Positions 20,820-25,837 of a DNA stretch of 35,506 bases are shown one piece after another (within the stretch, counting starts at the first letter, position 1; every line of letters begins with the position of its first letter). The stretch spans positions 1 through 35,506 of the forward strand of contig JAIEQC010000064.1 in the NCBI GenBank assembly GCA_019748055.1. The letters are read 5' to 3'. Below the pieces are notes generated by a model. The model did no database searches, was not told where the DNA came from, and saw nothing but the letters and a program-made list of their open reading frames with translations. The position numbers and the translations under genes are program-made. The DNA is from Caulobacteraceae bacterium. Lineage in GTDB: Bacteria; Pseudomonadota; Alphaproteobacteria; Caulobacterales; Caulobacteraceae.

Positions 20820-22892
<2,073 letters not shown>

Positions 22893-22896
22893 TCAG

Positions 22897-24324
22897 TCAG
22901 CGTTTGCTGGCCGACTTCCTCCGACGCGCGTCGACGTATTCGATCGAGCTCGCGGTCAGGCCGGCCTCTTCCGCCTTTTTCTGAGCGGCTTGGATTCGCC
23001 TGAGCTTCATACCCATGCCGCCAACGTCAACCACAAGAAACACTCCAGAAGCGTTCTTGGATGCGGCTTTGTAGACCTCTAACTGTTTTCTATAGCCGTG
23101 CTCGACTTGGCCCTTTGATAGTTTAATCTCGACGAGTACCCTGCCATTAAATCCGGTCGAGAACTTGAAATCGACGGGACCGCCTCCACTATTGGTTTCG
23201 GGTGAAATATCGACATCGTTTACTGCGCAGATCACATTCGCGACGGCGAAAAAGAGGAGCTGTGCAGCTCTCTCATGGCGCGGTTCGTGACCGTTCCACA
23301 GCAGTTCCCATAGATTGTTATCCTCCACCAAGGATCGAAACTGCGCCACGACCTCCAAGACGGTCGCTCTGAGTGTGTCTTGGTTCTTCTTCGTCGGAGC
23401 GGTGATCAGACCGACGTACTTGTCACGGTTCTCAGTCAGCACCTTTCGGAAGGTGAAAAGGCCGTCCAAATCGGCCTTCTCATCATAGGACTCGCTCGCG
23501 TTGGCGACCGCTGCAAGAAGGCGTCTCATATTCTCCGGAGAGTCGAAAGCTGCCTTCCTCATGGCCGCCTTGCGCTCGGAAACGGTTGCTTTGGACCAGT
23601 TCCCAAACAGCTTGTTCACCGCGTCTCGAAGTTCCTTAACTTCCAGGATAACGCGGGAAACGTCAGCCCAATCGGTTGCTAGCGGTAAGTCACGGAGGAC
23701 ATCCCTCGGCACCAGAAGGACCGGCTCATTCGGCCGATACGGGTTTTTGGGAAGCTTCGAGTTTCCGTACAGATCGCCGAACTGGCTGACTTTTATGCCG
23801 TTGACTTCCGCGAACTGCTTAGTGATCTTGCAAAGCGCAGGCAGTAGAGCATTGGTAGTCATGTCACTGAGCGTGTCAGGGCCGACGCCATCCTCGAATA
23901 GACCCATAAGAGGGATAACGTTGGGGTTCTTCTCACCCAACGTGATGATCTCTTTCGCGGTCCTCAGAATGTTGTTCCGCAGCCATTCCGGTCGGTCAGC
24001 GCCCGATGTGCTAGCGCCGCCGTAACCCAATCCAGTCTCCGAACGCTCATCGAGGTTGAGCGCCTTATAGGCACCACGCCACGCGACATCGCCTTCGCTC
24101 GCCGAGACCTCAAGTAGCTCCAGGACATTCTGAAAGCTCCTCCTGAGGAGCTTCATTCCATCGGCCCGCATGGCCGGATTTCGGCTCTTCTCAATGAGCA
24201 ATGGATCGATGAACAGCTTGGTATCCGAATTAAGAATCGGATCCATGAGGCCGGCCGTGTCCAGGAGCTTCGGATCAAAGCCGAACTTCTGGGAGAACAA
24301 TACGGGTTGGACTAGCTTTGCCAT
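22897..24324 (-). CDS. Uncharacterised protein with a C-terminal RecB/Cas4-type PD-(D/E)xK nuclease signature
   Basis: A 475-residue protein without a family name that I recognise. Residues 1-345 are mostly helical, with conserved-looking blocks: FGFDPKLLDTAGLMDPIL, K-L-F-I-D-P-L-L-I-E-K-S, GDVAWRGAYKALNLDE, LGYGGASTSG and EDGVGPDTLSDMTTNALLP. Residues about 350-435 look like a PD-(D/E)xK core: an early helix with E351, then D385 (PVDFKF), E399-I-K401 (VLVEIKLSKG) and Q414xxxY418 (KQLEVY). The QxxxY motif is typical of RecB/Cas4/AddB nucleases, but the four cluster cysteines of Cas4/AddB are absent. The tail is basic. Local base composition is far lower in G+C than thiC or frnE, suggesting transfer. 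A defence or DNA-processing role is inference. Confidence 0.7.
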   Translation of the reverse strand: MAKLVQPVLFSQKFGFDPKLLDTAGLMDPILNSDTKLFIDPLLIEKSRNPAMRADGMKLLRRSFQNVLELLEVSASEGDVAWRGAYKALNLDERSETGLGYGGASTSGADRPEWLRNNILRTAKEIITLGEKNPNVIPLMGLFEDGVGPDTLSDMTTNALLPALCKITKQFAEVNGIKVSQFGDLYGNSKLPKNPYRPNEPVLLVPRDVLRDLPLATDWADVSRVILEVKELRDAVNKLFGNWSKATVSERKAAMRKAAFDSPENMRRLLAAVANASESYDEKADLDGLFTFRKVLTENRDKYVGLITAPTKKNQDTLRATVLEVVAQFRSLVEDNNLWELLWNGHEPRHERAAQLLFFAVANVICAVNDVDISPETNSGGGPVDFKFSTGFNGRVLVEIKLSKGQVEHGYRKQLEVYKAASKNASGVFLVVDVGGMGMKLRRIQAAQKKAEEAGLTASSIEYVDARRRKSASKR

Positions 24325-24358
24325 TCAACCAATTTAGTTGAAAAAACGCCGCTATCAA
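24324..24358 (-). promoter_or_regulatory. Promoter with palindrome over the start codon of the nuclease-like gene
   Basis: On the minus strand TTGATA (24358-24353) and TAAATT (24336-24331) are 16 bases apart, and the ATG begins six bases after the -10, which would give a leaderless message. A perfect 6-base inverted repeat, TTCAAC (24324-24329) and GTTGAA (24337-24342), brackets the -10 and touches the start codon. No Shine-Dalgarno is visible. A repressor site at this place would block transcription. Confidence 0.5.
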
Positions 24359-24495
24359 CCCTGCGTCGAAATCGAGGGTCGAGTACCCGGAAACCTTGAG
24401 CGTCGGAGCAAAATCCACGGAGGAAAACACAGCCTCTCAGCCGACTTCAGAGGATGGAATCCCAGCATGCGCAGGTTCTAAAGGCCTTAGCGGGA

Positions 24496-25110
24496 TTAGA
24501 CTGTTGCCGGCCCAATGCGATACTTGCGCACCTTACGATTTCGGCTGTTCGAGTGTGCCAGTTGGTGAATGCGCGCGCTGGCTGCGGCAGCTGCATTGAC
24601 CGGCCCCCGTAGTCCGCTGACATCCACATGCGCCATGTCAGGATAGACAAGTGCAGCGCGATTCCCCGCGTGGATCGTATTCAGTTCAACGATTCCAACT
24701 GCGAGGGCGTCTTCCATTTCCATCACAGCGGAGGCGAGCTCCCACTCTAGTTCATGGACAGGAATCCCTCCGATAATTCGTTGGCATCGCTGGAGATTAC
24801 GCAGATTGGCCTCCCAAGCCTCGCCAGCAAAAACCTCACCAAAGCGAGCCGGAGGTTCCGCGGTCATTTTCTCGTATGGCCCTCGCAGGGTCCCTTCTGC
24901 CTTGAAGAGCACGCTAGCCAACGCCGAAATCTGCTTGTCGCGTTGGGCGCGGCGCGTTTCGGCTCGATCGTGATTGGTGACCCAGATGGCAGCGAGTATA
25001 GCGGCCACACTCCCTACCGCCTGAGCAACAGCGGCCCCGATTACGATCCAATCAGAAATGTCTTGGGATCGGCCAACGATTTCGATGGGGATGCTCATAA
25101 GCGTTGCCAT
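24496..25110 (-). CDS. Hypothetical single-pass membrane protein
   Basis: A 204-residue protein I do not recognise. One hydrophobic helix (about 21-44, WIVIGAAVAQAVGSVAAILA) is followed by a charged, probably cytoplasmic helical region (NHDRAETRRAQRDKQISALA) and a C-terminal domain with ANLRNLQRCQRIIGGIPVHE and W-E-L-A-S-A-V-M-E-M-E-D. The layout resembles small membrane-anchored accessory proteins of mobile DNA but gives no function. An alternative start is ATG 25098 (MSIPIEIVG). Base composition is again lower in G+C than the flanking chromosomal genes. It lies upstream of the nuclease-like gene on the same strand, but a 171-base gap with a separate promoter makes independent expression likely. 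Confidence 0.65.
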   Translation of the reverse strand: MATLMSIPIEIVGRSQDISDWIVIGAAVAQAVGSVAAILAAIWVTNHDRAETRRAQRDKQISALASVLFKAEGTLRGPYEKMTAEPPARFGEVFAGEAWEANLRNLQRCQRIIGGIPVHELEWELASAVMEMEDALAVGIVELNTIHAGNRAALVYPDMAHVDVSGLRGPVNAAAAASARIHQLAHSNSRNRKVRKYRIGPATV

Positions 25111-25138
25111 AACATCTTCGTCGACATCCCTGAACCGC

Positions 25139-25837
25139 TCACCCCTCCCCCGCCATCCCCCGCAACGCCTCCTCGAACACCCCCGCCGGCTGCCCGCCCG
25201 AGATCAGCCACTTGCCCTCCACCACCACGGCGGGCACGCCGGTGATGCCGCGCGACAGCCACAGGGCCTCTTCGGCGCGCACCTCGGCGGCGTACAGGTC
25301 GTCGGCCAGGACTTCGACGGCCTTGCCCCGGTCCAGCCCCGCGGCCGCCGCCGCGTCGGCCAGGACCCCGGGGTCGGTCAGGCGGCGCCCCTCGGTGAAG
25401 TGGGCGAGGAACAGGGCTTCCTTCAGCGCGCGCTGAGCCTCCGCTCCCACCGTCCCGGCCCAATGCAGCAGGCGGTGGGCGTCGAAGGTGTTCCAGATCC
25501 GGCTGTCCTCGCCCATCCGCATTTGAAATCCCGGCCACGCCTCGGCCGCGCGTTCGGTGATCATGGCGCGGTTGGCCGCCGACTGCTGCGGCGTCGATCC
25601 GTACTTGCGCCCTATGTGCTCGACGATGTTCTCGCCCTCGGGCGCCATCTGCGGGTTCAGCTCGAACGGCCGGAACGTCACCTCCGCCCCGATCCCCTCG
25701 GCCTTCAGCCGCGACAGCGCCGCCTCCAGCCCGCCCAGCCCCACCACGCACCACGGGCAGACCACGTCCGAGACGAAGTCGATGTGCAGGGTGCGGGCCA
25801 GGGTCGGGGCGGGGGCGGGGGGCGCGGCGTCGGTCAT
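25139..25837 (-). CDS. DsbA-family oxidoreductase, FrnE-like
   Basis: A 232-residue thioredoxin-fold protein with the active site C27-P-W-C30 (IDFVSDVVCPWCVVGL), the helical insertion domain, FRPFELNPQMAPEGENI and the cis-Pro loop GITGVPAVVVEGKWLISGGQ. FrnE-type proteins are cytosolic disulphide oxidoreductases/isomerases; no signal peptide is present here. The family is often annotated as DsbA family oxidoreductase or polyketide biosynthesis protein. It lies at the right edge of the low-G+C insert and has the normal high G+C of the chromosome. Confidence 0.92.
   Translation of the reverse strand: MTDAAPPAPAPTLARTLHIDFVSDVVCPWCVVGLGGLEAALSRLKAEGIGAEVTFRPFELNPQMAPEGENIVEHIGRKYGSTPQQSAANRAMITERAAEAWPGFQMRMGEDSRIWNTFDAHRLLHWAGTVGAEAQRALKEALFLAHFTEGRRLTDPGVLADAAAAAGLDRGKAVEVLADDLYAAEVRAEEALWLSRGITGVPAVVVEGKWLISGGQPAGVFEEALRGMAGEG

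Follow-up and report, generated by a model that had tools for sequence, protein, structure and literature searches.

A predicted PD-(D/E)xK nuclease as a likely lone anti-phage protein in the thiC-frnE defence slot of Brevundimonas

What is a gene of low G+C content doing between thiC and an frnE-type gene in an alphaproteobacterial genome, and how could it have come there? The question is raised by contig JAIEQC010000064.1 of assembly GCA_019748055.1, deposited as Caulobacteraceae bacterium and belonging to a Brevundimonas, of which the whole 35,506 nucleotides (hereafter the window) were analysed. A preliminary description, made from the letters of the window, had taken the gene for a transferred, solitary nuclease that would suit defence or DNA processing. 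The product of 475 residues, called P0001 here, has a predicted PD-(D/E)xK nuclease behind a domain with an LFIDP motif, and this one protein is likely to be an anti-phage system by itself. The larger finding, however, is not the nuclease gene but the slot around it, whose small sets of genes differ widely among the genomes of the genus and which is rich in defence families.

How variable is the interval between thiC and frnE? In a first survey, 35 stretches of the genus were fetched via frnE, and together with the window and a further locus, L003 (compared loci are given L numbers), they provided 29 loci having thiC and frnE together, one of which (L096) has only a 3′ piece of frnE. In all 29 intervals the lowest 500-bp G+C content lies at 0.41-0.56; the corresponding values for the 4 kb up to the stop codon of thiC are 0.60-0.65. 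Of the 131 genomes of the genus, 121 were found to have thiC, and in an extended survey 114 stretches were examined, 86 of which, one per genome, have thiC and the 3′ end of frnE; these are the window, L003, L107 and 83 from L062-L096 and L112-L185. Another 18 of the 114 have thiC without a following frnE (the contig ends early in five, and about 6.5 kb were read in 13), and 10 lack the thiC end. The 13 loci where no frnE follows within the next 6.5 kb (L117, L127, L130, L133, L138, L139, L143, L145, L157, L159, L163, L164 and L167) are either larger islands or rearranged loci. Over the 86 loci the interval measures 1.1-5.8 kb, with a median of 3.0 kb, and 84 intervals contain at least one low-G+C open reading frame (ORF) of at least 100 amino acids, L153 and L169 having none; there are one or two such ORFs in 73 intervals and three or four in 11. 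These 150 ORFs fall into 121 clusters by blastp, and when sites sharing any ORF cluster are joined, 64 site groups are obtained, two of them cargo-free sites and 62 different cargo groups. The nuclease occupies only three of the 86 sites (the window, L003 and L107), the other 83 having other cargo or none. The last 60 bp of thiC show a median identity of 80% over 3,655 pairs, while bases 3-63 past its stop codon show 25%, as random sequences do. Distant species would be expected to show such a sharp drop past a stop codon, and therefore the turnover of genes, rather than the sharpness of the border, is the evidence. A search of the open-access literature returned nothing on this nuclease gene or on the thiC-frnE site.

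Are these cargo genes of a particular kind? At 27 nuclease-free sites, 46 low-G+C ORFs have 110 amino acids or more. For the most part the larger of these, 30 in all and belonging to 25 sites, were scanned with PADLOC, whose matches were judged here and below by E-value and not by PADLOC's own cut-offs. Matches at E ≤ 1e-8 were given by 13 of the 30, from 11 sites, and two further ORFs from the remaining two sites added one more (L062), which makes 12 of 27 sites with a match at this threshold and 15 without. None of 67 control ORFs upstream of thiC at 23 of these sites matched at 1e-8 (Fisher p = 2.6e-8 for 13/30 against 0/67, the controls being high in G+C, mechanically called and not matched in composition). 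The matches comprise Septu PtuA/PtuB (L063), a reverse transcriptase-protease (L076), PD-Lambda-5 A/B (L077), pAgo (L074 and L062), a caspase (L064), Dazbog DzbA (L089), an Mrr-type enzyme (L082), a 'beta' component (L072), KwaB of Kiwa (L090), PDC-M41A (L086) and an HNH effector (L087), and weaker ones occur at five more sites (L088, 6e-7; L071, 5.6e-6; L092, 6.6e-5; L066, 9.3e-5; L096, 1.4e-4). With conserved flanks and a variable interval enriched in defence families, the thiC-frnE interval is a defence hotspot. Core genes around a variable, defence-rich interval are also found in the defence islands of Escherichia coli (PMC10121019) and in the core defence hotspots of Pseudomonas aeruginosa, which are almost always occupied, cDHS1 having a stated median length of 26 kb (PMC10250203). 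The Brevundimonas slot is far smaller than cDHS1 and mostly holds only one or two low-G+C ORFs. As for the pAgo-like cargo, the two proteins (L074:3576-5009 and L062:2027-3403) stand alone and have 458-477 amino acids, their best stretch lying within 55-465 of the 1,121-position pAgo profile.

What, then, is the cargo of the window? The nuclease ORF has the position and length that had been described; it is on the minus strand and lies in an insert of 2,246 bp bounded by the stop codons of thiC and frnE (Table 1). The G+C content of the insert is 55.5%, against 71-72% across the remaining window (lowest 500-bp value 0.524 inside, 0.646 elsewhere), and the two row counts by which the contrast had first been noted, 29/60 in the gene and 42/60 in thiC, proved exact. 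On its left is thiC, with a TPP (thiamine pyrophosphate) riboswitch upstream; on the other side the name frnE was simply carried over from the preliminary description, and we take its product to be of the DsbA-like family. The gene is real and conserved, and it is under strong purifying selection, its ratio of nonsynonymous to synonymous divergence (dN/dS) being about 0.02. Among 100 aligned relatives, E351, Q355, D385, E399, K401, Q414 and Y418 are invariant in all rows, so that the signature D385, E399-x-K401 and Q414xxxY418 pointed out before holds throughout: an acidic D and a (D/E)xK, as in PD-(D/E)xK nucleases, and after the predicted catalytic lysine a QxxxY of RecB/Cas4 type. In the AlphaFold model of P0001 (predicted local distance difference test score, pLDDT, 88.5) the C-terminal domain, which holds the signature, has its nearest likeness in PD-(D/E)xK nucleases by structure comparison, and it is predicted to be such a nuclease domain. 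The large N-terminal part is mainly helical in the model, in agreement with the preliminary description, and carries the LFIDP motif, of which D34, L37, F38, D40 and P41 are invariant in the family alignment; blocks like it can be recognised by eye in the distant relatives of L002 and L029.

The set of D, E-x-K and QxxxY residues, which we take to be the motifs of RecB, AddB and Cas4, raises the possibility of a housekeeping enzyme of DNA repair or processing. P0001 departs from nucleases of that kind in its N-terminal part, the insert has neither a helicase nor a Cas gene, and the four-cysteine iron-sulphur site of AddB and Cas4 is absent, as had been stated, the only cysteines being at 165 and 366. 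What decides the matter is the distribution: full-length copies are present in only five of the 131 Brevundimonas genomes, three at the thiC-frnE site and two elsewhere, with distant matches in two more. We rejected this reading on the distribution and hold it to be very improbable. The nearest copy within the genus belongs to genome G083, which shares sequence with the record of B. naejangsanensis DSM 23858 (L003). Beyond the genus, relatives were located at 27 loci of named genomes, mostly of Alphaproteobacteria, in six of 72,556 plasmid records and at two loci of viral contigs. The gene was also considered as a phage gene, and this identity was rejected on those two viral loci and on the absence of any match among 50,697 phage records.

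Does the protein belong to a known family? Scans of P0001 with Pfam and NCBIfam name nothing above their cut-offs, and no PDB chain is a clear relative in sequence. Its match in PADLOC is PDC-M36A (PDLC04597), at 1.4e-6, residues 29-215 aligning to 26-215 of the profile, which has 457 positions, so that less than half of it is covered. All 22 family members scanned, P0001 included, match this profile at E ≤ 0.1, the best at 3.5e-13, and distant relatives do so more strongly, as in L002 (4e-41) and in Paenarthrobacter (9.5e-20), while the relative on a Bradyrhizobium plasmid (L100) shows no match to it at 0.001. The relative in L002 (565-2103), a protein of 512 amino acids in another Brevundimonas, has by eye an ExK-type, nuclease-like stretch at its C-terminus. 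More than 800 relatives of P0001 are in the protein database, and among those listed (the best 120 of 822 and the best 120 of 805) every one bears, as P0001 does, the precomputed labels PF28130 and PF28123; where the source gives them a readable name it is 'hypothetical' or 'uncharacterized protein', with the exception of P0169, 'chromosomal replication initia...'. The nuclease gene would be a distant member of PDC-M36A or a near cousin of it; P0001 has the N-terminal part in common with this family, remotely matched and with no partner gene recognised. The abbreviation 'PDC' means phage defence candidate (PMC11514479).

The lists of structural likeness for P0001 include AspBHI, MspJI, XisH-type proteins, SduA and Cap4. 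Shedu SduA (DUF4263) and CBASS Cap4 are defence nucleases of the PD-(D/E)xK class, but the match to SduA in sequence is not significant (0.041), and the scans of P0001 name no SAVED family. AspBHI and MspJI lead to the main rival reading, in which P0001 would be a solitary modification-dependent restriction enzyme, Type IV-like, whose N-terminal domain reads modified bases and which cuts directly, with neither trigger nor cell death. The neighbourhoods of the relatives bear on this reading as well as on the defence reading in general, and the inspection of them that had been proposed was carried out. An AspBHI-type enzyme adjoins the relative in L014 and has a blastp relative in L015, and an Mrr-type enzyme is, as mentioned above, among the cargo of the slot. 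In a joint scan of 123 ORFs within about 3 kb, from 22 loci and with no control set, 105 PADLOC families were matched at 1e-8, Type IIG enzymes heading the 25 that were listed; such enzymes occur near the relatives in L011, L012 and L019. A neighbour in L012 matches the DEDDh exonuclease of a reverse-transcriptase system and one in L018 a helicase type, and in L026 an MvaI/BcnI-type gene stops 2 bp before the nuclease relative; five of ten neighbours scanned for defence names had no match at 1e-5. On a Rhodobacter plasmid the relative lies near SIR2, DUF3427 and GIY-YIG genes, and on the Bradyrhizobium plasmid among genes without a telling name. A different arrangement is seen on the conjugative plasmid pA of Paenarthrobacter (L099:1074-8449), where a Type IIG-like enzyme, a DEAD/DEAH helicase, a GIY-YIG gene and the nuclease relative form an overlapping run, the relative overlapping the frame of the GIY-YIG gene; this could be a four-gene restriction system.

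Could P0001 itself work by restriction? Neither P0001 nor the second ORF of the insert contains a methyltransferase family in Pfam, PADLOC or NCBIfam, and the cognate methyltransferase of restriction-modification Types I-III and IIG is thus lacking. Because none is recognised in the insert, it is unlikely that the cell protects itself by cognate methylation, and a triggered activation is preferred. The same absence suits a Type IV-like enzyme; against it, Pfam names no base-reading domain in the N-terminal part even at E ≤ 1, and we regard this reading as possible, yet rather unlikely. The sporadic distribution and the defence genes beside several relatives support in substance the earlier view of a transferred solitary nuclease of defence type, and a lone, triggered anti-phage protein remains the probable explanation. 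In such a protein, the N-terminal domain would hold the nuclease idle and sense that an infection has begun, by a sign of some kind; in the C-terminal domain, D385 and E399 would bind a metal ion and K401 would be part of the active site; and the nuclease, once activated, would cut DNA, by which replication of the phage might be halted.

It is to be noted that the nuclease gene is not the single gene of the insert that it had been thought to be. P0002, a protein of 204 amino acids, is encoded between it and frnE on the same strand, with a gap of 171 bp. The two might form a two-gene system, in which the nuclease is the effector and P0002, membrane-like, its partner or antidote; they share the low-G+C insert, and the 'M' of PDC-M36A, which presumably denotes multi-gene, may be counted on the same side. 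However, a tblastn comparison with part of the loci (L003 and L013 included) finds P0002 in the window's own genome only, and a search of 5.8 billion proteins gave one other relative, at 47% identity, against the more than 800 of the nuclease, which makes this reading improbable. P0002 looks like a near-orphan with a hydrophobic stretch, by eye, at its N-terminus, for which PADLOC gives no match even at E ≤ 1. The nuclease gene had also been credited with its own promoter, but there is one sigma-70-like match (24358-24331), directly before the start codon, where 0.7 is expected by chance, and therefore it is no evidence for a promoter.

How can such cargo be exchanged? The 11 loci whose frnE is most similar to that of the window (83-91% identity) have other cargo or, in L153, none, while the nuclease copy most like P0001 (L003, 93%) sits with the most distant frnE of the 83 compared (65%); identities of thiC were left out of this measure of relatedness, since many stretches carry only its last 200 residues. 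Different cargo near by and the same nuclease far away fit an exchange at the slot between species, with the qualification that the synonymous divergence (dS) between the nuclease copies of the window and L003 is high, which shows that they are not the result of a recent swap. In L107 the nuclease adjoins frnE, and about 1 kb of other DNA separates it from thiC. The window ORFs beyond thiC and frnE, compared as a hand-picked set, occur in no other fetched stretch, which is uninformative as these stretches are short past frnE.

One may suppose that the nuclease itself drives the movement, as a homing-like enzyme or as an accessory of XisH or Cas4 kind. It lies in a low-G+C insert, XisH-type proteins appear in its structure lists, and genes of mobility stand near several relatives: integrases in L010, an IS1595 transposase in L009, a resolvase in L005 having relatives in L016, L019 and L030, and on a Nitrosospira plasmid a tyrosine recombinase with toxin-antitoxin genes (L018 also has an ATPase among the neighbours and L027 a tRNA synthetase, and two of ten neighbours in the family scan had no family at 1e-5). 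Yet the slot turns over without the nuclease, as the 83 sites with other or no cargo indicate, no duplicated thiC end was found in the 29 inserts, and few neighbours recur between the loci of the relatives; we consider a mobility nuclease quite improbable. An attachment site was also sought: the 3′-terminal 24 bp of thiC and frnE, searched on both strands of the 29 inserts, revealed no att-like repeat, matches being about equal to those in five shuffles per insert and only a few one or two mismatches better, and this model was rejected. With tblastn, eight mobility proteins taken from the fetched loci gave no match in the 86 inserts, which is a weak test, as no integrase profile was run on the cargo. 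Neither tRNA nor tmRNA (transfer-messenger RNA) genes were found in the window, to which that scan was confined.

The simplest account of how cassettes arrive is likely to be homologous recombination in the conserved flanks, with no integrase of their own; recombination in the flanks is raised as one possibility for the hotspots of P. aeruginosa (PMC10250203). Two or more 3′ ends of frnE follow thiC in 11 of the 86 loci (L065, L066, L067, L071, L123, L151, L153, L175, L180, L184 and L185), a 3′ piece standing by the cargo and another end beyond it. These extra pieces are possibly scars of imported cassettes; of five examined, only that of L071 clearly fits a scar (85.6% identity to the frnE of the window, 76.7% to its own), the others being ambiguous. 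Taken together, we lean, with some caution, to the view that the thiC-frnE interval would be a dedicated one-slot defence port of Brevundimonas, in which nearly all species keep a single small immune cassette, where recombination in the flanking genes would replace one whole cassette by another without an integrase, and where the nuclease, with a new sensor domain, acts without a partner.

Table 1. Positions of the features in the window
Feature	Position	Strand	Basis
P0001, predicted N-terminal LFIDP domain and C-terminal PD-(D/E)xK-like nuclease	22897..24324	-	ORF, model, alignment
N-terminal part, residues 1-280, mainly helical	23485..24324	-	model; border approximate
DTKLFIDP motif, D34-x-x-L37-F38-x-D40-P41	24202..24225	-	alignment
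C-terminal nuclease-like core, residues 345-470	22915..23292	-	structure comparison, model
D385 codon, predicted catalytic	23170..23172	-	100/100 rows
E399-I400-K401 codons, predicted catalytic E-x-K	23122..23130	-	E and K in 100/100 rows
Q414xxxY418 codons	23071..23085	-	Q and Y in 100/100 rows
P0002, second insert ORF	24496..25110	-	ORF list
Low-G+C cargo (occupied slot)	22893..25138	.	thiC to frnE stop codons
thiC, left flank of slot	20892..22892	+	
frnE-type gene, right flank, 3′ end towards cargo	25139..25837	-	name taken from preliminary description
TPP riboswitch of thiC	20822..20911	+	Rfam RF00059, 63 bits

What do the gene and its slot mean for the immunity of these bacteria? If the nuclease protects its host, a compact nuclease defence made of one protein, with more than 800 relatives, would be added to those known. 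The slot outweighs the gene in importance, as 84 of 86 genomes keep cargo, of 62 groups, at one small, fixed address. Since no recognised mobility gene or att-like repeat has appeared there so far, it is a test case for an exchange of defence genes without integrases. The 15 scanned sites without a confident defence match offer direct candidates for immune systems of new kinds, of a size that is easily cloned, and if the reading as a port is true, the slot would be a ready-made trap for undescribed immune systems of one and two genes.
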